A stretch of 64,000 bases of DNA from assembly GCF_000310205.1 (NCBI RefSeq), contig NZ_AMXE01000002.1, positions 62,001-126,000 of the forward strand, read 5' to 3'. The DNA comes from Thauera linaloolentis 47Lol = DSM 12138 (GTDB lineage Bacteria > Pseudomonadota > Gammaproteobacteria > Burkholderiales > Rhodocyclaceae). The number at the start of each line of letters is the position of its first letter. The stretch's first letter is position 1. Below, in pieces: positions 15,552-62,962 of this stretch. The notes under the pieces are model-generated. The model worked only from the letters and a program-made list of their open reading frames with translations. It was not told the DNA's origin and made no database searches. The position numbers were made by a program, and so were the translations under genes.

Positions 15552-16577
15552 TCAGGCCGGCCCGATCCGGACCCAGTAGCGCGTGATGCGGGTCATGCGC
15601 AGCGGGAAGGATTGCAGCAGCACACGCAGGGCCTGGTCGGTGTCGTCGATGGGGTAGGCGCCGGAGACGCGGAGGTCGGCTACGGCGGGGTCGCAGACGA
15701 GGCGGCCGGGGCGGTAGCGGGCCAGTTCGGCGATGAGGTCGCCGAGGCGTGCGTTGCCGACCACCAGGCTGCCGTGCTCCCACTGTGCGGCGGCGTTGCC
15801 GGCGCTTTGCGGCGGCGAGATGGCGGTGGCGGTGAAATGGGCGGATTCGCCGGCCCGCAGTACCTGGGCCTGTTGCCCGTCCCGCGGGCGCAGCTCGACC
15901 GCGTGTTCGAGTACCGAAACCTGCGTGCGCTCACCGTGGTGGCGCACGACGAAGCGGGTGCCCAGCGCGCGTACGGTGCCGTGCGCGGTGTGGACGAGGA
16001 AGGGCCGCGGATCGTTGGCGGCCTGCAGGTGGGCGGCGGTTTCGACGAGGATTTCGCCGGCCCACAGGGTGATCGTCCGCGCCGCGTCGGTGAAGGCGAC
16101 GTCCGCCGCGCTGTCGGTGTTGAGGACGATGCGCGAGCCGTCGGCCAGCGCCACGCTGCGCCGTTCACCCACGCCGGTGCGGTAGTCGGCCAGCCAGGGC
16201 TGGAGCAGGGCCTGGTCTTCCGCCGCGCGGTACGAGAGCCAGCCGGCGGAGCCGGTGGTGGCGAGCAGGAGGATGCCGCGCAGTATCGTGCGGCGGCCGC
16301 GCCCGGCTGCCTGCAGGGTGGGCAGCGCGATGTTGCCAGGCACCCGCTGCATGGCCTGGCGGATGGCGCCGATGCGTTCCCAGGCGCGCTGGTGGTCGGG
16401 ATGTTGCTGCAGCCAGTCGCGCAGGCCCTGGTGGTCGGCCTCGGTGGCTTCGCCGGAGCATAGCCGCGCGTACCAGGCCACGGCTTGCTTGCGCAGGGTT
16501 TGTTCGTCGCGCTGGGAAAGGCCGTTGCCGCTGGTGGCGGGCCCCGCCGTGGCCGGATCGGAAGAGGATTGCGTCAT
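15552..16577 (-). CDS. FecR-type membrane regulator (set 3)
   Basis: A 341-residue FecR-family protein. An N-terminal cytoplasmic domain (QAVAWYARLCSGEATEADHQ) is followed by a membrane helix at about residues 97-115, preceded by Arg-Arg (95-96), then the periplasmic FecR domain (VALADGSRIVLNTDSAADVA) and a C-terminal receptor-contact domain ending ITRYWVRIGPA. Its ATG at 16577 overlaps the sigma stop (ATGA). The frame is open to 17222, but that extension only overlaps the sigma gene. It should couple the receptor at 12899-15361 to the sigma at 16574-17080. Confidence 0.93.
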   Translation of the reverse strand: MTQSSSDPATAGPATSGNGLSQRDEQTLRKQAVAWYARLCSGEATEADHQGLRDWLQQHPDHQRAWERIGAIRQAMQRVPGNIALPTLQAAGRGRRTILRGILLLATTGSAGWLSYRAAEDQALLQPWLADYRTGVGERRSVALADGSRIVLNTDSAADVAFTDAARTITLWAGEILVETAAHLQAANDPRPFLVHTAHGTVRALGTRFVVRHHGERTQVSVLEHAVELRPRDGQQAQVLRAGESAHFTATAISPPQSAGNAAAQWEHGSLVVGNARLGDLIAELARYRPGRLVCDPAVADLRVSGAYPIDDTDQALRVLLQSFPLRMTRITRYWVRIGPA

Positions 16578-17080
16578 GGCGCCAGCAGGTAGCATTGTTC
16601 GATGGCCTGGCACATGTAGTTGCTGACAGTGCGCTTGGTGACGCCGAGCTGGGTGGCGATCTCGGCGTAGGTCAGCCCTTCGAGCTGCGACAGCAGGAAG
16701 GCCTGGCGCACCGCCGGCTTCATGCCGTCGAGCATGGTGTCGATGGCGATCAGCGCCTCCAGCATGATGCTGCGTGTTTCCGGGCTGGGTGCCTCCGGTT
16801 CCGGCAACGTGGCCAGCACGTCGAGATAGGCTTGCTCCAGGCGCTGCCGGCGGAAGAAATCGGCAACCAGCCCGCGCGCGATCGTGCTCAGGTAGGCGCG
16901 CGGCTCCCGCAGCGTTTCGGCTTCGCGCCTCTGCAACACCCGCATGAAGGTGTCCTGCGCCAGATCGGCCGCGTCGCAGGCATTCCCCAGCTTGCCGCGC
17001 AGCCAGCCCTGCAGCCAGCCGTGATGGTCTCGATAAAGGGTCTGCAAGTCCTGTGGCGGAGAGGCGTCGACGGGAAGCAT
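16574..17080 (-). CDS. FecI-type ECF RNA polymerase sigma factor (set 3)
   Basis: A 168-residue ECF sigma. Region 2 is seen in LYRDHHGWLQGWLRGKLG...DAADLAQDTFMRVL and region 4 in LTYAEIATQLGVTKRTVSNY. The ATG at 17080 (MLPVDASPPQ) is chosen because the alternative ATG at 17116 lies inside the Fur palindrome. First gene of the sigma-FecR pair, with a four-base overlap. The Fur-like site 20 bases upstream would limit expression to iron starvation. It may also drive the divergent broken receptor, which carries the same promoter element but has no sigma gene of its own. Confidence 0.92.
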   Translation of the reverse strand: MLPVDASPPQDLQTLYRDHHGWLQGWLRGKLGNACDAADLAQDTFMRVLQRREAETLREPRAYLSTIARGLVADFFRRQRLEQAYLDVLATLPEPEAPSPETRSIMLEALIAIDTMLDGMKPAVRQAFLLSQLEGLTYAEIATQLGVTKRTVSNYMCQAIEQCYLLAP

Positions 17081-17099
17081 GGTTGTGAATGAGCACAAA

Positions 17100-17116
17100 A
17101 TGAGAACTGTTCTCAT
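17100..17116. promoter_or_regulatory. perfect Fur-box-like palindrome between sigma 3 and the broken receptor
   Basis: ATGAGAAC-T-GTTCTCAT is a perfect 8-1-8 palindrome; the core TGAGAAC-N-GTTCTCA matches 10 of 14 positions of the 7-1-7 Fur consensus. It sits in the divergent region and can serve both directions. Confidence 0.7.
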
Positions 17117-17157
17117 GGTATAGGATGGGCGCCATAAGGCGAAACAGCGCAGCGCGG

Positions 17158-17189
17158 GAAAAAACCGCCGGGCATTGTCCTTTTTCGAG
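17158..17189 (+). promoter_or_regulatory. putative FecI-type promoter of the broken receptor
   Basis: GAAAAA (17158-17163), 18 bases, TTTTCGAG (17182-17189), ending 53 bases before the ATG at 17243. The promoter is intact although the gene is not. Confidence 0.5.
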
Positions 17190-17242
17190 TCTCGTTCGAC
17201 CCCCAAGGGAAAACCTGCCCATCGAACGAAAAGGAAAAGCCC

Positions 17243-18056
17243 ATGCAGCACTCGAACCGCCCTCCTCGCCATCACGGCCAGGCCCTCACCCCGCTCCTTG
17301 CCGCCTTGCGCCGGACCTGCGTCGGCCTCGCCCTGGCCATGCCTGCTGCACTGCCCGTCCCCGGCCATGCCCAGACGCCGCCGCAGGCCACCAAACGGGC
17401 ATACGACATCCCCGCCGGCCCGCTCGGCACGGTGTTGAGCCGCTTCGCCGGCGCCGCCGGTGTCGTCCTGTCCTTCGACGCCGGCTTGACGGCAGGCCGC
17501 TTGACGGCAGGCCAGGAGAGCCGCGGGCTGCAAGGCAGCTATGGCGTAGCCGAGGGTTTTGCGCGGCTGCTGGGCGGCAGCCGCCTGGAAGGGGTTCGAT
17601 GTCGAAGTTTCCGGCGAGGTGCTGCCCGACGTGCAACTGACGGCGGGCTACACTTTCAACAGCAACCGGAACGACGTCACCAGCGTGCGCTACCATTCGG
17701 TCACGCCCAAGCACCTGTTCAAGCTATGGGGCAACTGGAAGCCGCTGGCCGGCCCCTGGAGCGTGGGCGGCGGGGTGACGGCGCAAAGCAGGCACTACGT
17801 CAGCGGCACCGTCAATGCCCTCGACACGGCAACGGGCGAATTCGACGGGCCGAGCCAGGCATTTGCGTTCACGCAAAGCGGATACGCCATATGGAGCGTG
17901 CGCATCGGGTATCAGCTCCACCAGAACGCCAGCCTCGCGGTCAACATCAACAACGTATTCGACAAGACATACTACAAGCACGTCGGCAACACGATCGGCG
18001 GGAACTGGTATGGCGAGCCGCGCAACGCCATCGTGTCGCTGAGGCTCAAGTACTGA
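17243..18056 (+). pseudogene. TonB-dependent siderophore receptor with internal deletion and frameshift
   Basis: The first 115 codons are a normal receptor start: signal peptide ending GHAQT, then the signalling domain (YDIPAGPLGTVLSRFAGAAG...GLQGSYGVAEGFARLLGG). At about 17590 the sequence jumps straight into the C-terminal barrel (FDVEVSGEVLPDVQLTAGYT...NINNVFDKTYYKHVGNTIGG...SLRLKY), now one frame over (+1). Compared with intact receptors about 1.6-1.7 kb is missing: TonB box, plug and most of the barrel. A 15-base tandem duplication at 17486-17513 (two copies of TTGACGGCAGGCC) inserts five residues (RLTAG). The remaining barrel part resembles the partial receptor at the left edge. No functional product is expected, although a truncated signalling domain could still be made. 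Confidence 0.9.
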
Positions 18057-18074
18057 GCCGTCCACAGCGCGACG

Positions 18075-18096
18075 GGCCTGGCGGAAAAGCCAGGCC
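18075..18096. terminator. hairpin between convergent broken receptor and bfr
   Basis: GGCCTGGC (18075-18082) pairs with GCCAGGCC (18089-18096) over a GGAAAA loop, 18 bases after one stop and 8 bases before the other. No T run on either side, but placed as a shared 3'-end structure. Confidence 0.5.
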
Positions 18097-18104
18097 ACAC
18101 CGGA

Positions 18105-18590
18105 TCAGCCTGCCGTTCCCGGCTTCATCTGGCTCTGCAGGTAGTTTTGCAGGCCGACCATGCCGATCAGCCGCAGTTGCTGTTCGAGCCAATGGATGTG
18201 GTCCTGCTCGGTGTCGAGCAGCAAGGGCATGAGCCTGTCGCGCGTGACGAAATCCTGCTCCTGCTCGCACAGCACGACGATCTCGCGCAACTGCCGGATC
18301 ACCGCCATCTCCGTGTCCAGGTCGTGCTGCAGCATCTGGGGAACGTCGCGGCTGGTGTTAGCCGGCAGGCGCTGGCCGAGGTCGGGCGTTCCTTCCAGGA
18401 ACAGAATCCGCTCGATCAACACCTTGGCATGGGTGAGCTCTTCCTGGTGCTCGTGATAGATGCGGTCATAGAGATACAGCAAGCCCATGTCCTGATAGAC
18501 GTGGGCATGCACGAAATACTGGTCGGATGCCGTCATCTCGTAAGCCAGCATCGTGTTGAGCGCATCGATGATCTTGGTATTGCCTTTCAT
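18105..18590 (-). CDS. bfr: bacterioferritin, haem-ligand-less subunit type
   Basis: A 161-residue iron-storage protein of the 24-mer bacterioferritin family. The ATG at 18590 has GGAGAG upstream. Di-iron ferroxidase ligands are present: Glu18, Glu51, His54, Glu94, Glu128 and His131, plus Tyr25. The position that in E. coli Bfr is Met52, the axial ligand of the inter-subunit haem, is Leu52 here (EELTHA instead of the E/D-E-M-K-H-A pattern). Subunits like this occur in species with two Bfr types that co-assemble, so a haem-binding partner may be encoded elsewhere. It lies next to the iron-uptake island, convergent with the broken receptor. A hairpin (18627-18646) lies in its upstream region; no clear Fur site is seen there. 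Confidence 0.93.
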   Translation of the reverse strand: MKGNTKIIDALNTMLAYEMTASDQYFVHAHVYQDMGLLYLYDRIYHEHQEELTHAKVLIERILFLEGTPDLGQRLPANTSRDVPQMLQHDLDTEMAVIRQLREIVVLCEQEQDFVTRDRLMPLLLDTEQDHIHWLEQQLRLIGMVGLQNYLQSQMKPGTAG

Positions 18591-19027
18591 GGACTCTCCG
18601 CCTTGCGTTGTGGCCGGACGCATCGCCCGCACCTTTCCGGGTGCGGAGTTTGAAGCAGAGCAATGCCGTGATCAAGGCAAATTTTCCTTATCCAGCAATG
18701 CCTTATGGCGATTTATCGAGATTGCCTCTCATTCCTCGGTCGCGCCTTGGGGAACGCTTATCATTGCCCTCGCCTTCAGCCACCGGTCCTTGCCCTCATC
18801 GGGGTGCCAGCCCGCCTGCCTCATGATTGGGCAACACCGTCGAATCCTTTGCCATCATGGGCAGCAGCCACTTATCCACAGTCCCGCTCACAAGTCTGTC
18901 CCCATCGGCTGGGGAAAACCCGCACTTCCACCCTGAAGCCGCACGGCATCCGTGCCTGACCGCTTCATTCCCTCCGCTGGCCAAAAAGCGCCATCTCAGG
19001 CGATAAAAAAATTTGCTCATGGAATTG

Positions 19028-19056
19028 TTGCGTTGCACAACAAAGATCGCTATTAT
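19028..19056 (+). promoter_or_regulatory. promoter of the candidate small RNA
   Basis: TTGCGT (19028-19033), 17 bases, TATTAT (19051-19056; 5 of 6 matches to the -10 consensus). Start expected near 19063. Confidence 0.4.
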
Positions 19057-19062
19057 TCGAAC

Positions 19063-19134
19063 CGTCTCCTCCACCCTCCTCCTTTGGTGTGGATTTAGGC
19101 CCGGACCCTCACGGCGTCCGGGCTTTTTTCTTTT
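19063..19134 (+). ncRNA. candidate small RNA with anti-Shine-Dalgarno motifs
   Basis: A plus-strand transcript of about 70 nt is implied by the promoter upstream and a strong intrinsic terminator at its end. No open reading frame fits between them. It contains CTCCTCC (19066-19072) and CCTCCTCC (19075-19082), both complementary to Shine-Dalgarno sequences. The second is displayed in the loop of a small stem CACC/GGTG (19072-19075/19086-19089). The single-stranded C-rich 5' end, C-rich loop and U-rich terminator together resemble anti-SD regulatory RNAs. No known family was recognised; existence and extent are inference. Confidence 0.4.
19099..19134 (+). terminator. intrinsic terminator on the plus strand
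   Basis: GCCCGGAC (19099-19106) pairs with GTCCGGGC (19116-19123), followed by TTTTTTCTTTT. Read on the minus strand there is no T run, so it does not serve yejK; it must end a plus-strand transcript. Confidence 0.85.
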
Positions 19135-19158
19135 GCGCGTCGCAGCATCCGCTGCATC

Positions 19159-20166
19159 TCACTCTTCCAGCAGCATCTGCTTCAGATAATCCGGCAGGCC
19201 GGACAGCACGAGGGAATCGGTCTCGCGGTCATAATGCACCGCCCCCGAATGCAGCCCGCTGCGATCGAACTCCACCTTCCACTGCTCGCCGCTCGCGCTG
19301 AAACGGACCAGCGGGCGAATGGCACGCCTGTTGGGCACAAAGCCGCTCGACAGCCTGGTTTCCGCCGCGTTCAGTACGGCATCCAGGCGCTCGGGCCGCT
19401 CGGGGAAGACCTCCTGCGCGAGTTCGCCGAACACCACCGGCTCACCGTTCTCGCCCAACGCGTCGAGATGGGCGTGGGCGCGTTCGAGCAAGGCATCGCG
19501 CCGCGCCGGTTCGAGTTCCTGGCGGTCGGCGAACTGGCTCAGCGCCAGTACCAGCTTCTTCGTTTCCTGAACCGCCACCACGACGTCGCTGCAGCCCAGG
19601 AAGCGCTTGAAATAGCTGCCGGCCTTGCCCCGCCCGCGCAGGAAGCTCAGGTAGCGCCCATCGCCGCGCTGCCAGGCGCTCAGGTCGATGCGCCCTGCCG
19701 CCTGCAGGGACGACAGGTCGAGATGGAGGCTGTCGACGACATCGAGCGATCCCGACACCATACTGCCTTCGGCCTCGCCGATCAGCGCAACCCACAGGCA
19801 GTCGGCCTGCGGCTCCTGTACTTGGGCGACCACGATCACGCCGCTCTCTTCCGCCTCTTCCTCGTCGGCGACCGCCTGCAGCCGCTGCGCCAGTTGGTGC
19901 GACAAGGCAACGAAATCCGGGCTTTGCCCCAGCAGGTGTTCCCGCAGCCATCGCGGCAAGGGAAAGCGCTCCTCGTCTTCCTCGAAGCAGCCGAAGCCCT
20001 TGGCGGAACGGTTCGAGTACTGGCGGCTCAGGCTTTCGACCAGGCGCAGGCCCGCATCGTCGAGCGGGCACGCCACGGCGCGCAGGCCCAGCATGGCGGG
20101 GGCGCCCGACGCCTTGCGCAGACGATGGACGATGAGATGGCGAAGCGTGTGTTCGACGGAGGACAT
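19159..20166 (-). CDS. yejK: nucleoid-associated protein YejK/NdpA
   Basis: A 335-residue protein, the same length as E. coli YejK, of the 37-kDa nucleoid-associated family. The start at 20166 (MSSVEHTLRHLIVHRL) is chosen because the family begins this way and GGAGG precedes it; the frame is open to 20259 without support. Family features include GCSDVVVAVQETKKLV in the middle and a C terminus RPLVRFSASGEQWKVEFDRS. It binds DNA in the nucleoid; its exact role is not well defined even in E. coli. Single gene, divergent from dksA. Confidence 0.92.
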   Translation of the reverse strand: MSSVEHTLRHLIVHRLRKASGAPAMLGLRAVACPLDDAGLRLVESLSRQYSNRSAKGFGCFEEDEERFPLPRWLREHLLGQSPDFVALSHQLAQRLQAVADEEEAEESGVIVVAQVQEPQADCLWVALIGEAEGSMVSGSLDVVDSLHLDLSSLQAAGRIDLSAWQRGDGRYLSFLRGRGKAGSYFKRFLGCSDVVVAVQETKKLVLALSQFADRQELEPARRDALLERAHAHLDALGENGEPVVFGELAQEVFPERPERLDAVLNAAETRLSSGFVPNRRAIRPLVRFSASGEQWKVEFDRSGLHSGAVHYDRETDSLVLSGLPDYLKQMLLEE

Positions 20167-20370
20167 GGAGGTGGCTCGCTGCAATCGGGGGCCGCGATTC
20201 TCGCATGCCTGCGGCGCTTTCACCGCCCCGGCAGGCCACCTGCCCCGATGTGCCGACATCGCCGGGCATGTGCCGCGCGCACCGGCAGCGCAGGCCGCTC
20301 GGCTTGCTGCCTCCCCCCGATTCTGCTATTAAGACGCCTCCACTATTCACCAACCTACGGAAGTTGATTC

Positions 20371-20796
20371 ATGGCTGACGATACACTGCACAAACAATTC
20401 CCGCCCTACGTTCCCGCCGCTGGCGAGGAATACATGAGCGAGAAGCAGATCGCCCACTTCCGCGAGATCCTGGGCTCGCTGAAGGGTGAGCTGATGGAAG
20501 ACATCGAGCGCACCGTGCACACGATGCAGGACGAGGCCACCGTGTTCGCCGACCCCAACGACCGCGCCAGCCAGGAGTCCGACATCGCGCTCGAACTGCG
20601 CAACCGCGACCGCGAGCGCAAGCTCATCAAGAAGATCGACGAAGCGCTCGGTCGCCTCAATGGAGGCGAGTATGGCTACTGTGACAGCTGCGGCGTCGAG
20701 ATCGGCCTGAAGCGCCTGGAAGCCCGTCCGACGGCCACCATGTGCATCGATTGCAAAACGCTGGAAGAAATGCGCGAGCGCCAGGTCGCCAAGTAA
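20371..20796 (+). CDS. dksA: RNA polymerase-binding transcription factor DksA
   Basis: A 141-residue DksA. It binds the secondary channel of RNA polymerase and, with ppGpp, represses rRNA promoters and activates amino-acid promoters. The coiled-coil tip motif D-P-N-D-R-A-S carries the two critical Asp and the Ala. The zinc finger is complete: CDSC...CIDC (YGYCDSCGVEI...MCIDCKTLEE). Upstream CGGAAG suits the ATG at 20371. A monocistronic gene ending in a strong bidirectional terminator shared with pnp. Confidence 0.97.
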   Translation: MADDTLHKQFPPYVPAAGEEYMSEKQIAHFREILGSLKGELMEDIERTVHTMQDEATVFADPNDRASQESDIALELRNRDRERKLIKKIDEALGRLNGGEYGYCDSCGVEIGLKRLEARPTATMCIDCKTLEEMRERQVAK

Positions 20797-20814
20797 GGCC
20801 AGCGCCGCAGCACA

Positions 20815-20850
20815 CGACAAAAAAGGACGCCTGGGCGTCCTTTTTTGTCG
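20815..20850. terminator. bidirectional terminator between dksA and pnp
   Basis: A 16-bp perfect stem: CGACAAAAAAGGACGC (20815-20830) and GCGTCCTTTTTTGTCG (20835-20850) around a CTGG loop. A-rich and T-rich arms give a T run in both directions. Confidence 0.95.
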
Positions 20851-20887
20851 TTGCCGCTCAAGGCGGGCCGAAGCCCGCCACCAGGCA

Positions 20888-22987
20888 TCAGCCGGCGTTC
20901 TCGTTGAGCAGCGCCTTCATGCTCAGGCGGATCTTGCCGCGCTCGTCGGTCTCGAGCACCTTCACGCGCACGACCTGGCCTTCCTTCACATAGTCGGCCA
21001 CGTTGTTGACGCGCTCGTTGGCGATCTGCGACACGTGCAGCAGCCCGTCACGGCCCGGCATGATGTTCACGATGGCGCCGAAGTCGAGCAGGCGCACGAC
21101 CGGCCCTTCGTAGACCTTGCCGACTTCGACTTCGGCGGTGATCGCCTCGATCTTCGCCTTCGCGGCCTGGGCGCCCTCGGAGCTGACCGAGGAAATCGTG
21201 ATCTGGCCGTCGTCCTCGATCTCGATCACGGTACCGGTCTCTTCCTGCAGGCCACGGATCACCGCACCGCCCTTGCCGATCACATCGCGGATCTTCTCGG
21301 GGTTGATCTTCATGTTGATCATGCGCGGCGCATACTCGGACACTTCGCCGCGCGAGGTCCCCAGCGATTCCTTCATGATGCTGAGGATGTGCAGCCGGCC
21401 GGTCTTGGCCTGCTCCAGCGCAGCCTGCATGATGTCCTTGGTGATGCCCTGGATCTTGATGTCCATCTGCAGGCCGGTGACGCCGTTCTCGGTACCCGCG
21501 ACCTTGAAGTCCATGTCGCCGAGGTGGTCCTCGTCACCGAGGATGTCGGTCAGCACGGCGAAGCGGTTGCCGTCCTTGATCAGACCCATCGCGATGCCCG
21601 CGACGTGGTCCTTCAGCGGAACGCCGGCATCCATCATCGCCAGCGAACCGCCGCAGACGGAAGCCATCGACGACGAACCGTTGGACTCGGTGATCTCGGA
21701 CACGACACGCACGGTGTACGAAAACTCCTCGGCCTTGGGCAGCATCGCCACCAGCGAGCGCTTGGCCAGGCGGCCATGGCCCACTTCGCGGCGCTTGGTA
21801 ACGCCGAAGCGACCGGTTTCGCCGGTGCAGAAGGGCGGGAAGTTGTAGTGGAGCAGGAAGCGCTCCTTGTACTCGCCGGCGATGGCGTCGATGATCTGCT
21901 CGTCACGGCCGGTGCCCAGCGTGGCGACGACCAGCGCCTGGGTTTCGCCACGCGTGAACAGTGCCGAGCCGTGGGTGCGCGGCAGCACGCCGGTGCGGAT
22001 CGTGATGGGGCGCACGGTCCGGGTGTCGCGGCCGTCGATGCGCGGCTCGCCGTTCAGGATGCGGCTGCGGACAATGCCCGACTCGATGTTGAAGAAGATA
22101 TCCTTCACTTCGGTGGACGACAGCGGGGTTTCGCTCTCCTCGGCCAGCGTGGCCGCCACGCGCCTGCGGATCTCGGCCAGGCGGGTCGAGCGCTCCTGCT
22201 TGCTGGTGATGCGGAAGGCTTCTTCCATGTCGGCCTTGGCCAGTTCGGTGACGCGGGCGATCAGCGTCTCGTTGGCCGGCGGCGCCTGCCAGTCCCACTC
22301 GGGCTTGCCGGCGACTTCGACCAGCTCATTGATGGCCTTGATCGCGACCTGCATCTGCTCGTGGCCGAACACGACCGCGCCCAGCATGACCTGCTCGGGC
22401 AGTTCCTGCGCTTCGGATTCGACCATCAGCACCGCGGCCTGCGTGCCGGCGACCACCAGGTTCATCTGGCTGGCCTGCAGTTCGGTCACGGTCGGGTTGA
22501 GGATGTACTGGCCGTCGGCATAGCCGACGCGGGCGGCACCGATCGGGCCGTCGAACGGAATGCCGGAGATCGCCAGGGCGGCGGAAGCGCCGATCATCGC
22601 CGGGATGTCGGCATCGACTTCCGGATTCAGCGACAGCACGGTCACGATCACCTGGACTTCGTTCATGAAGCCTTCGGGGAAGAGCGGGCGGATCGGACGG
22701 TCGATCAGACGCGAAGTCAGGATTTCCTTCTCGGTCGGACGGCCCTCACGCTTGAAGAAGCCCCCGGGGATGCGGCCCGCGGCATAGAACTTCTCGACGT
22801 AATCGACGGTGAGCGGGAAGAAATCCTGGCCCGGACGCGCCTCCTTGGCGCCAACCACCGTGGCCAGCACCACGGTCTCGTCCATGTTCACGATGACGGC
22901 ACCGCCGGCCTGGCGGGCGACTTCCCCGGTTTCGAGGGTGACGGTATGCGCGCCGTAGGCGAAAGTTTTCTTGATAGCGTTCAGCAA
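20888..22987 (-). CDS. pnp: polyribonucleotide nucleotidyltransferase (PNPase)
   Basis: A 699-residue phosphorolytic 3'-5' exoribonuclease, RNA-degradosome component. Domains in order: RNase PH-like 1, helical linker, RNase PH-like 2 with the phosphate-site region ([20 protein letters not shown]), KH ([10 protein letters not shown], about residues 550-600) and S1 ([20 protein letters not shown], about 610-680). The start is the TTG at 22987 (then [11 protein letters not shown]): AAAGGAA lies 5 bases before it and homologues begin at this point, while the ATG at 23023 adds an unrelated leader. The last gene of the rimP-to-pnp unit. A large stem-loop in the rpsO-pnp gap is a likely processing or autoregulation site. 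Confidence 0.97.
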
Positions 22988-36967: not shown

Positions 36968-37320
36968 GCTGGAACCACCATGTTTGAAGTGCTCGCATTA
37001 TCCCACCGCCCGCCCCTTTTCACCGCCTTCCCGCGGCACGGATCCGAGCGATGGAATATTGTGCAACGCACCACGCTTTCCCGCGCCCGTCCTGGCAATC
37101 GGCGGCAAGGATTTTTTTCATCTTTCACGCGAAATAAATTCCCCACGCTTCGGAAACCGTGTATCGTGCGGCTTGCAGTCGATTCAAGCAGTGGTTGTTC
37201 TGGTGGTTGTCCAGCGTGTTCTACGAGAACGCGTGCCGGTCTGATTCCTCTGGATTACGTTTCTTGATCGTTCCTGCATTTTGGGGCACTACGCCCAGTC
37301 ATTTTTTATATGGAACGCAA
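36968..37320 (+). promoter_or_regulatory. intergenic region with the long leader of the cold-shock gene
   Basis: No protein gene is supported. The 150 bases before the cold-shock ATG are less GC-rich than the flanks and hold a short stem GTTCT-ACG-AGAAC (37218-37230), a tandem TGGTTGT and a T-rich stretch (CATTTTTTATATGG) before the weak Shine-Dalgarno sequence GGAACG. Long structured leaders act as thermosensors in E. coli cspA; the same is plausible here. No clear -35/-10 pair was found. Confidence 0.4.
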
Positions 37321-41882: not shown

Positions 41883-41911
41883 TTCTGAAATGCTGCATTG
41901 CAGAATATACT
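41883..41911 (+). promoter_or_regulatory. candidate promoter of fabI
   Basis: TTCTGA (41883-41888), 17 bases, TATACT (41906-41911, 5 of 6 matches). It would give a leader of about 110 bases. Confidence 0.35.
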
Positions 41912-42029: not shown

Positions 42030-42809
42030 ATGGCCCCCATCATCAATCTGGAAGGCAAGGTCGGCCTGATCACCGGCATCGCCAACGAAAAATCCATTTC
42101 CACCGGCGTGGCCGAAGCCTGCGCCCAGGCCGGCGCCAAGCTGATCATCACCTACCAGAACGAAAAGACCCGCGCGTTCATCGAACCGGTGATCCACCGC
42201 CTCGGCGTCGAGGATGTGTTCCTGCTCGACGTCACCCAGCCCGAGACCATGGATACGGCCTTCGCGCAGATCGAGGCGCGCCATGGCAAGCTCGATTTCG
42301 CCGTGCACAGCATGGCTTTTGCCAAGCGCGACGATCTGCACGGCCGCGTGGTGGATACCTCGGCCGACGGCTTCGCGCTGGCGATGGACGTGTCGACCCA
42401 CTCCTTCGTACGCCTAGCCAAGAAAGCCGAGCCTCTGCTCGAAAAGGCCGGCGGCGGCGCCCTGGTGACGATGACCTACCTCGGTTCCGAGAAGGTCATC
42501 CCCAACTACGGCGTGATGGGCCTGTGCAAGGCCGCGCTCGAGGCCGCCACGCGCTACATGGCGGCGGAGCTCGGCTCCAAGGGCATCCGCGTCAATGCCG
42601 TCTCGCCCGGCCCGCTGATGACGCGCGCCGCCTCTGGCATCGCCGGCTTCGACGGCCTGATGGCAGCCGCCGTCGAGCGCTCGCCGATGCACGCCCTCGT
42701 CACCCCCGAGGACATCGGCGCACTGACGGCCTTCCTCGTCTCCGATGCCGGCCGGCTGATCAGCGGTGGGGTGCATTTCGTGGATGCCGGGTATAACATC
42801 ATGGCGTAA
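42030..42809 (+). CDS. fabI: enoyl-[acyl-carrier-protein] reductase (NADH) FabI
   Basis: A 259-residue short-chain dehydrogenase that reduces enoyl-ACP in fatty-acid synthesis and is the triclosan target. The modified nucleotide motif GIANEKSI is at residues 16-23. The active site is Y150 (TYLGSEKVIPNYGVMGLCK), Tyr160 and Lys167, corresponding to E. coli Tyr146, Tyr156 and Lys163. Quaternary-contact segment RYMAAELGSKGIRVNAVSPG is conserved. It is followed after 15 bases by a kinase-like gene. Confidence 0.96.
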   Translation: MAPIINLEGKVGLITGIANEKSISTGVAEACAQAGAKLIITYQNEKTRAFIEPVIHRLGVEDVFLLDVTQPETMDTAFAQIEARHGKLDFAVHSMAFAKRDDLHGRVVDTSADGFALAMDVSTHSFVRLAKKAEPLLEKAGGGALVTMTYLGSEKVIPNYGVMGLCKAALEAATRYMAAELGSKGIRVNAVSPGPLMTRAASGIAGFDGLMAAAVERSPMHALVTPEDIGALTAFLVSDAGRLISGGVHFVDAGYNIMA

Positions 42810-57100: not shown

Positions 57101-59015
57101 CGCGCTGGAAGGCATCCTGGAACAAGGGCCGGACGTCGTGTATGTCCAGCGCTTCCGCGCCGCCGAAACCCAGGCCGAAATCATGCAGCCAGACGGTGCT
57201 GCCGTCATGCCGCATGATGTCCGACGAACGCTCGTCCATCACCCTGACGCCCATCCGCTCCAGCATCGGCAGGCTCTGCGACAGCGGCACCGGCGCGCCG
57301 AGACGATAGATGCGGAAATTCAGGCGCCCCACCGGCGCCTCCAGCGACCGGTAAAGATTCATGCCGAGATCGTCGCCCCCGGCCAGCGCCTCCATCTGCT
57401 CGATGTCGAACACGGCCATGCGCGCCGGATAGTCTTCCCTGTAGCCAGCCGGGAAACCGCCGCCGTATCGCCGCAGCAGCGCAAGCCCGCGCTCCTCCCC
57501 GCACTGCTCGACCAGGATTTGCTGGAGATCGTCCTCCCAGCGCCGCGTGGCGCGGATCAGACGCTGCTCCAGATCCTTGACGTCGAAGGGTGGGATCACG
57601 GAATCGCGGGTGCGCACGATGATCAGGATGCGGGCCAGCGCCGAATCGGAGAACTGCACATCGAACTCGGACGACGCACCGTCGAAGGCCTCGACCAGCA
57701 CCGCCTGCATGCACTTGCGCTGGTCGGTGTTGTAGTGTTCGCGGGGGACGTAGATGAGGCACGAGACAAAGCGCGCGAAGGGATCGCAGCGTACGAAAAG
57801 CCGGGTGCGCAGGCGCCCGCCGAGGCGCAGGATGCCCATCGCCTGCGTGTAGAGCTCGTCGGTGCCGATCTGGAACAGCTCATCGCGCGGATACTGCTCG
57901 ATGATGGTCTGCAGCGTTTTCGCGGCATGTCCGCCAGGCAGCAGTCCGGCACGTTCGATCACCGCCGCCACCTTGCGCCGCAGCAGGGGAATCCGGGCCG
58001 GCGAGGTGCCGTACGCGGTGGACGCGAGCAGGCCGAGGACGCGCCGTTCGCCGGTCACGCGCCCGTCGTCGCCGAAGGTCTTGATACCGAGGAAATCGAG
58101 ATAGCCCGGACGATGCACGGTGGAACGCGTGTTCGACTTGGTCACCGTCAGCACGCCCGGAAGATGGGCCTGCGCCCGGAGCTGGGGCGGCAACGCGGCA
58201 AACGAGCGCGAACGGCCGTCCTCGCCATCGCTGCGCAGCAGGCCGAGCCCGGAGTCCGGTACGATGCGCAGTTCGTCACCTTCCTCGCCGCGTACCAGCG
58301 CATAGTCGCGGCAGCCGAGCAGGACGAAGTTGTCGGATGCCAGCCATTCGAGGAAATCCCTGGCCTCGGCTGCTTCATCGGCACCGACCGTCTGGGGAAG
58401 ATTTTCCAGGCCGGCAATGATGTCGTGCATGCGTTCGCGCATCCTCGGCCAGTCGCCGACTGCCGCGCGGACATCGGACAACACCTGCTCCAGCCCCTGC
58501 TGCAGGGAGAGCAGATCCGCCGGATCGGTGCGGCGATCGACTTCGAGGTGCATCACCGATTCATGGCCCGCGCCGTCATCGCCCTCGTCGGCCAGCCGCA
58601 GCAGGACGCCGCCGGCATCCCGCAGCACCTTCAAGACGGGATGGATGATCAGGTGCAGCGTCAGGCCCTGGCGATTGACCTCCATCGTCACAGAGTCGAC
58701 CAGGAAAGGCATGTCGTCGCCGACGATTTCGATCACGGTATGGGCGGATTCCCAGCCATGCTCATCAAGACGCGGATTGAACACGCGGACGGCGCTGACA
58801 GGCCCGCGGCGCGAGATGAAGTGCCACTGGCTGAGCACGGCGCCGTAGAGATCGGCGACGGACAGTGGCTCGAGGTCTTCGGGATCGACCTGTGCAAAAA
58901 AGCGCAGCGCGAATCCGGCAACCGCTTTTGCCTGCTCCGCCGGCAGGCGCCCGGCGATCTGCTCGACGACCGCGTCGATCTGTGCGGCCAGCCGCTTCTG
59001 TTCCGTCTTCTCCAT
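54198..59015 (-). CDS. NAD-specific glutamate dehydrogenase, large (about 180 kDa) type
   Basis: A 1605-residue catabolic glutamate dehydrogenase of the GDH-180 class (glutamate to 2-oxoglutarate plus ammonia). The central catalytic part lies at about residues 780-1200: GGLRWSDRMEDFRTEVLGL, with the following substrate lysine region VPVGSKGGFVVKNPP, and VAAFDHRHVFIDPAPDPAAS. N-terminal ACT-like regulatory region and a long C-terminal helical region flank it. GDH-180 enzymes are allosteric, often activated by aspartate. Single gene; a long frame on the opposite strand is only a shadow. Confidence 0.96.
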   Translation of the reverse strand: MEKTEQKRLAAQIDAVVEQIAGRLPAEQAKAVAGFALRFFAQVDPEDLEPLSVADLYGAVLSQWHFISRRGPVSAVRVFNPRLDEHGWESAHTVIEIVGDDMPFLVDSVTMEVNRQGLTLHLIIHPVLKVLRDAGGVLLRLADEGDDGAGHESVMHLEVDRRTDPADLLSLQQGLEQVLSDVRAAVGDWPRMRERMHDIIAGLENLPQTVGADEAAEARDFLEWLASDNFVLLGCRDYALVRGEEGDELRIVPDSGLGLLRSDGEDGRSRSFAALPPQLRAQAHLPGVLTVTKSNTRSTVHRPGYLDFLGIKTFGDDGRVTGERRVLGLLASTAYGTSPARIPLLRRKVAAVIERAGLLPGGHAAKTLQTIIEQYPRDELFQIGTDELYTQAMGILRLGGRLRTRLFVRCDPFARFVSCLIYVPREHYNTDQRKCMQAVLVEAFDGASSEFDVQFSDSALARILIIVRTRDSVIPPFDVKDLEQRLIRATRRWEDDLQQILVEQCGEERGLALLRRYGGGFPAGYREDYPARMAVFDIEQMEALAGGDDLGMNLYRSLEAPVGRLNFRIYRLGAPVPLSQSLPMLERMGVRVMDERSSDIMRHDGSTVWLHDFGLGFGGAEALDIHDVRPLFQDAFQRVWRGEIENDDFNRLVLLAGLSWREVSVLRAYAKHMRQAAFTFSQAYMEQTLASYPQLARQLYELFRARFDPALETGREARCAQLVAEIESGLNTVANLDEDRILRQFLAMILATLRTNAFQRAADGRPKSWLSFKFAPSRIPNLPQPLPMFEIFVYSPRIEGVHLRGGKVARGGLRWSDRMEDFRTEVLGLVKAQIVKNAVIVPVGSKGGFVVKNPPAEGGREALLAEGVACYQIFLRGLLDLTDNLVQGRVVAPPDVVRHDEDDPYLVVAADKGTATFSDHANAISAEYGFWLGDAFASGGSVGYDHKKMGITARGAWEAVKRHFRELGTDIQNEPFTVAGIGDMSGDVFGNGMLLSKQIRLVAAFDHRHVFIDPAPDPAASWEERARLFALPRSSWDDYDRSLISEGGGVWPRTAKSISLSPQVRAVLGIEAGALAPAELIRAILTAPVDLLYNGGIGTYIKAASEADASVGDRANDPVRVNGGALRCRVLGEGGNLGATQLGRIEFALKGGRVNTDAIDNSGGVDCSDHEVNIKILLNGVVADGELTLKQRNQLLADMTDEVAALVLRDNYAQTQILSVTRSRGVALLDEQAEFMRRLSHAGRLNRKLEFLPLDEELAERQAARIGLTNPELAVLLAYGKIELYDEVLASDVPEDPYIRTALERYFPAPLRERFGAQIQQHALRREIISTHVINSMINRVGPTFVGRLKSELGVPAPDVVRAYMATREVFGLVDVWAQIEVLDNRVDNAVQIELIGECDRLVQRGTLWFLHHPAWLEDLQATLAYFSPGVATLAEGLAEFVAPAYRAEFDAAIVRRLEQGVPQALAERVAALDELYSALDLVEVAAETRRAEPLAAQVYFGLGGELELHWLGRQVSALPADSRWQGLARGALRGDLSGLARTLAANALQSAPDEEDAASVLSSWLARQGTRLERYRQLLADIRAGQSIDMAMVSVLLRELRGMG

Positions 59016-60883: not shown

Positions 60884-62872
<1,989 letters not shown>

Positions 62873-62962
62873 GATGTCTCCTCACCATCCAAAGGTTCAT
62901 ACAATCGGCGCGGCCTTGCTTGTTATTGGTATGCCGCCTGCAAACACGCCGCCGCTGCGCGA

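Follow-up and report, generated by a model that had tools for sequence, protein, structure and literature searches.

The window, that is, the whole 64-kb stretch of DNA analysed here, carries a small RNA locus flanked by the genes for a ferritin-like protein (PF00210) and the 37-kD nucleoid-associated protein YejK (PF04245), in agreement with the original prediction, which had placed an RNA between iron-storage and nucleoid genes. The candidate promoter consists of a −35 hexamer TTGCGT (19028–19033, + strand), proposed from the sequence and an alignment of 14 copies, and a −10 hexamer TATTAT (19051–19056, +), the TA of which is invariant in that alignment; both boxes are present with the predicted spacing of 17 nt, and their match to the sigma-70 consensus is mediocre (3/6 and 5/6, respectively). 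The predicted 5′ end of the RNA falls at about 19062–19064, and the 69-nt strand 19063–19131 (+) is predicted to fold into two hairpins (−30.4 kcal/mol, z −4.38), with 0 of 200 shuffled sequences equally stable. In this fold, an unpaired anti-Shine-Dalgarno box, GUCUCCUCC, occupies 19064–19072 (+), at the 5′ end where a CU-rich box had been predicted, and the motif TCTCCTCC is conserved near the 5′ end. Hairpin 1 (19070–19093, +), delineated by the predicted fold and the Rfam alignment, exposes a second anti-Shine-Dalgarno box, UCCUCCUUU, in its loop (19077–19085). The second CU box as a whole (19074–19085) lies partly inside the stem. The terminator, also as predicted, spans 19097–19134 (+) and comprises a hairpin (19097–19125) and a U-rich tail, with T at 19124–19129 and 19131–19134; the hairpin is kept, with altered stem sequences, in the 14 aligned copies. 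A simple promoter and terminator scan called no promoter in 17000–21000 and also missed the sRNA terminator, probably because the loop was read as 9 bases and the limit of the scan is 8.

Three mechanical ORFs overlap the stretch (19013–19189, +, 58 aa, TTG start; 19089–19301, +, 70 aa, GTG start; and 18796–19074, −, 92 aa), so that the description of the region as being without an ORF is not literally correct; nothing observed here supports any of the three as a gene. Elsewhere in the window, a FecR-type gene (−) lies near a TonB-dependent receptor frame (15552–18056), of which only the C-terminal part gives a match (17559–18056, +, 165 aa), and the receptor may be truncated.

The only Rfam match above the gathering cut-off within the window is RF02278, “Betaproteobacteria toxic small RNA,” at 19063–19131 (+), with 57.3 bits against a cut-off of 50 (E 6.9e-09) and over the full length of the model (positions 1–64 of 64). 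The predicted fold contains the two hairpins of this family, the second being a terminator with a U tail, and the sequence and fold place unpaired CU-rich boxes complementary to the Shine-Dalgarno sequence at sites 1 and 2. The family was reportedly named by Kimelman in 2012. The covariance match independently confirms the two-hairpin sRNA; judged by this match, the window locus is a member of RF02278 and encodes an RNA of a type already known. The label “undescribed” in the original prediction is therefore wrong, because the locus scores above the gathering cut-off of a described family. Membership in anti-hemB (RF02837; 27.1 bits, cut-off 49.5), NmsRb (RF02877; 23.6 bits, cut-off 52), and suhB/MmgR (RF00519; 16.9 bits, cut-off 41) was considered and rejected.

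The double-hairpin RNAs ncS03, ncS05, ncS27, and ncS62 of Burkholderia cenocepacia carry the RF02278 label (PMC5688073), as do four Herbaspirillum RNAs (PMC7011215); S17 of Bordetella pertussis was likened to RF02278 by its authors (PMC11722255), and a review touches on RNAs of this type (PMC10987360). The published mechanism of the family is complementarity to ribosome-binding sites, with targets predicted among functions for the uptake of carbon and amino acids (PMC5688073, PMC11722255, PMC7011215, PMC10987360), so that an anti-Shine-Dalgarno sRNA blocking ribosome binding was the right class of mechanism to predict, albeit one already published. Expression of ncS27 attenuates growth (PMC5688073), and S17S represses one gene directly; S17 was not notably toxic in E. 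coli during exponential growth (PMC11722255).

Copies of the sRNA in the genus and order

The source genome contains two RF02278 copies, the window copy and a second one (L001) located between what we take to be coq7 and rplM. Neighbours of these two types recur in the genus when searched with these proteins, and the coq7 neighbour agrees with that reported for S17 (PMC11722255). The family is present in all of the genus genomes searched (29/29). Among 300 genomes drawn from the order, 188 yielded an RF02278 match, 114 of them above the cut-off, and none of 14 control genomes did; a class-wide search gave matches at E 0.001 in 51 of 185 genomes, only two of which, the source genome included, exceeded the cut-off.

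The genus analysis comprises the 56 copies above the cut-off, with 16 weaker ones left out; the latter are RF02278-like matches of 30–47 bits (15 of them at loci L086–L100) and possibly represent third and diverged copies. Thirty of the 56 are of the coq7/rplM type, including one (L071) counted by sequence, the short locus of which showed neither coq7 nor rplM, and these have a leader before the mature RNA, estimated at 45–60 nt from −10-like boxes. The remaining 26 are, like the window copy, of a direct type, with the promoter directly before the mature 5′ end. In L001 (1380–1500) and other coq7-type genus loci, the leader is conserved, and the stretch from the −10-like box to the mature RNA holds an inverted repeat (CGGATCG ... 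CGCCGATCC), possibly an element for processing, as in S17.

For the direct-type copies, no conserved neighbour beyond yejK in three loci was found among the 26 genus loci, most of which had 500 nt of flank. A functional tie to the ferritin and nucleoid-associated neighbours was rejected as unsupported: with the same flank at most other loci, yejK was detected at only 3 of 26 direct-type copies (L002, L078, and L082) and ferritin at L002 only. The Burkholderia members showed no significant response to low iron (PMC5688073).

The order analysis covers 150 listed copies (E 4.2e-9 or better, all above the cut-off) from 106 of the 114 genomes, and further matches exist; one of these copies (L236) ends at a contig end, leaving n = 149 beyond 150 nt. 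Loss of the C-rich boxes, which the original prediction had named as a refutation, is not seen for the 5′ box, TCTCCTCC being found in 142 of the 150 order copies listed; for the second box, a narrow pattern recovers 93 of 150.

A PhaR-type palindrome upstream of the sRNA

Overlapping the −35 box of the window copy, at 19025–19041 (no strand assigned), is a candidate PhaR-type operator, TTGTTGCGTTGCACAAC, which agrees at 16 of 17 positions with YTKNTGCRNYGCANMAR, the PhaR site of R. eutropha (PMC12849132). The site of PhbF of H. seropedicae, established by footprint and accompanied by reporter repression, is TG[N]TGC[N]3GCAA (PMC3206438). The sRNA promoter has the only exact occurrence of TTGTTGCNNYGCACAA in the source genome, where four further sites differ from it at one position. 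Upstream of the 14 aligned direct-type copies, TTGC-N3-GCA is kept, as are a few flanking T/A positions and the −10 TA. The strict motif TGCRNYGCA is found in 51 of the 56 genus copies above the cut-off, at −33/−34 in 25 of 26 direct-type copies and at −100 to −120 in 26 of 30 coq7-type copies.

The source genome also encodes phaR (PF07879, E 1.3e-31; L110), and three of its four phasin genes (L106, L107, and L108) have a similar palindrome 151–271 nt upstream of the phasin match; none was present within 1,000 nt upstream of the weak phasin L109. Two palindromes precede the phaR match by ~1,040–1,060 nt, and the frame that follows them is presumably phaB. Other PhaR-like palindromes were noticed in passing. 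Within the window, TGCTGCATTGCA at 41891–41902 is located ~130 nt upstream of fabI (42030–42809, +; enoyl-ACP reductase, NF005717), a possible further member of the PhaR regulon as judged from this site, and a palindrome with two mismatches to TTGTTGCNNYGCACAA (37059–37074) lies upstream of a CspE-type cold-shock gene (37321, +). At another locus (L102:1447–1520; G000:C10), two such palindromes precede a 108-aa ORF (1691–2017, +), a candidate PHB-linked gene.

Across the order, TGC-N3-GCA occurs within 150 nt upstream of 82 of the 150 copies listed; the remaining five palindromes composed of T, G, and C occur at 2 to 6 of the 150, and the best other palindrome among all 64 triplets, AAA-N3-TTT, at 26. 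The strict motif is found within the same distance in 75 of the 150 copies listed; 100 dinucleotide shuffles average 4.0 and never exceed 9. The PhaR DNA-binding domain (PF07879) is encoded in 203 of the 300 order genomes. Among the copies listed, the strict motif accompanies 74 of 112 in genomes with phaR vs 1 of 38 in genomes lacking it (Fisher p 9.5e-13), the single exception (L196) coming from a genome rated 85% complete. The loose motif within 300 nt gives 88 of 112 vs 7 of 38 of the copies listed. By genus, again for the strict motif and the copies listed, the motif is present in 48 of 52 genera with phaR throughout and in 0 of 11 without it, with four mixed genera (three with the motif, one without). 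The p-values overstate certainty, because common descent links the copies and the genera. Counting against the link to PhaR, 24 of the 112 listed copies in phaR-containing genomes lack TGC-N3-GCA over the 300 nt upstream, 7 of the 38 in genomes without phaR have it, and the weak phasin L109 has no site nearby. Overall, the comparison across copies and genomes supports the putative operator well.

Predicted targets in the window

Duplexes of the 5′ part of the sRNA with the stretch from −25 to +5 were scored for the 111 window ORFs that start with ATG and encode 150 aa or more, a set that certainly includes many spurious frames. The best duplex, at 62872 (−), has an energy of −25.1 kcal/mol, which is reached by 0 of 1000 shuffled sites and by 0.17% of 3000 random 30-mers. 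It involves the acetoacetate-CoA ligase gene (60884–62872, −; TIGR01217, 960.1 bits), with the ribosome-binding site GAGGAGAC at 62876–62883. This ligase returns acetoacetate, formed from the PHB breakdown product 3-hydroxybutyrate, to metabolism. The octamer GAGGAGAC is kept before the start in 18 of 30 genus homologues, a set that includes guessed start codons and paralogues; taken alone, it is weak evidence, because its frequency in the window is near that expected by chance (3 found, one being the antisense of the sRNA itself, vs 1.99 expected). The ligase gene is thus a target by prediction only, on the duplex model. A second candidate, at 59015 (−), is a 1605-aa protein without an NCBIfam match, which, from its sequence, we take to be NAD-glutamate dehydrogenase. 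Its modelled duplex is weaker than that of the ligase between −25 and +5 (−23.3 vs −25.1) and stronger but less specific in the longer stretch from −40 to +20 (−28.5 vs −25.5); because shuffled sites reach −23.3 in 116 of 1000 cases, vs 0 of 1000 for the ligase energy, we do not put it forward.

Proposed control by PhaR

From these sequence features, we infer that the window sRNA belongs to the regulon of PhaR, a sensor of stored carbon that also binds PHB granules. When PHB is absent, PhaR would occupy the −35 region and prevent transcription of the sRNA; once PHB granules form, PhaR would be titrated onto them and the sRNA would be made. Its CU-rich boxes would then cover Shine-Dalgarno regions and repress the translation of uptake and catabolic genes, and carbon uptake and the use of 3-hydroxybutyrate would be lowered while the cell stores carbon. 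To this reading, an RF02278 sRNA with a PhaR operator that is derepressed by PHB and lowers carbon uptake and 3-hydroxybutyrate use, we assign a probability of about 0.7; within it, we likewise infer the binding of PhaR at the sRNA promoter and the direction of control and, for the window copy, expression, targets, and Hfq involvement. Titration of PhaR by PHB granules has been described in R. eutropha for phaP1 (PMC12849132). Published expression of the Burkholderia members agrees with PHB derepression in part: ncS03 and ncS05 are up 8.0- and 6.9-fold in glucose medium, and also 2.6- and 3.9-fold in starvation, and Burkholderia members are up in biofilm as well (PMC5688073). An increase under these last two conditions does not fit carbon excess alone and counts against the model, as does the lack of notable toxicity of S17 in E. 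coli.

Alternatively, TGCRNYGCA could be the site of another factor, with the sRNA under a different regulator and the co-occurrence with phaR resulting from lifestyle or ancestry. Because the genomes with and without phaR fall in clades, the association of motif and phaR is indeed not fully independent; however, the palindrome equals sites that footprint and gel-shift experiments have assigned to PhaR in Herbaspirillum and R. eutropha (PMC3206438, PMC12849132) and precedes three phasin genes of the source genome, and we regard control by another regulator as improbable. We consider it somewhat less probable still that PhaR acts as an activator, so that the sRNA would be made when PHB is absent. 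We keep activation among the alternatives because R. eutropha PhaR can activate, as in the case of phaP3 (PMC12849132), and it would accommodate both the increase of Burkholderia members in starvation (PMC5688073) and the coq7-type copies, where the sequence suggests a site immediately 5′ of the probable −35 box. Against it, the window site overlaps the −35 box, which is the position of a repressor; the largest increases of ncS03 and ncS05 are those in glucose medium (PMC5688073); and MmgR is repressed by AniA/PhaR (PMC8401924). The poor sigma-70 matches of the promoter boxes might also point to a functionless copy, silent or decayed, but this appears highly improbable given the conservation of the promoter core, boxes, and hairpins in the 14 aligned copies and the presence of the family throughout the genus genomes searched.

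If repression by PhaR and derepression by PHB extend beyond the window, the RF02278 sRNAs across the order would form the RNA branch of the PhaR regulon and the betaproteobacterial counterpart of AniA–MmgR, with PhaR as a candidate for the S17 repressor; we consider this broader proposal probable as well, if slightly less so than that for the window copy. The S17 authors postulate that an unnamed factor represses the S17 promoter; BvgA was without effect in vitro (PMC11722255). In our search, no literature was found that joins PhaR to the RF02278 family; two sources outside that search, the 2019 article by Sass on NcS27 and Fig. S3 of PMC5688073, could already contain it. PhaR has zero occurrences in the S17 preprint, the string “phar” occurs once in PMC5688073, and the passages searched in PMC11332829 and PMC13044030 do not raise the link. 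A putative PhaR-type operator at the promoter of an RF02278 sRNA may be new. Riboregulation of PHB in the model producer Cupriavidus necator was called undeciphered by a 2021 review (PMC8401924). If true, the link to PhaR would explain when and why a widespread family of “toxic” sRNAs is produced and would join carbon storage to the post-transcriptional control of uptake genes in betaproteobacteria.

Among known systems, ncS03, ncS05, ncS27, and ncS62 of Burkholderia have the same two hairpins and CU-rich boxes as the window RNA in a different organism, and an upstream motif common to three of these four RNAs has been reported (PMC5688073). S17 of Bordetella pertussis shares the conserved 5′ part and, with the second copy of the source genome, the coq7 neighbour; however, RNase E releases S17S from a precursor of 190 nt (PMC11722255), whereas the window copy has its promoter directly before the mature 5′ end. 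NmsRb of Neisseria has CU-rich boxes complementary to the ribosome-binding sites of metabolic genes, as in RF02278, a likeness to the double-hairpin RNAs remarked on by Sass 2017 (PMC5688073), but, unlike the window RNA, is a member of a tandem pair. The Burkholderia sRNA anti-hemB has a CU-rich region in common with the window RNA and scores under the cut-off of its family. The nearest precedent for the proposed control is MmgR of Sinorhizobium meliloti, likewise an sRNA tied to PHB and repressed by AniA/PhaR (PMC8401924, PMC12542648), which, unlike the window RNA, is alphaproteobacterial, belongs to another Rfam family (RF00519), and acts on phasins.
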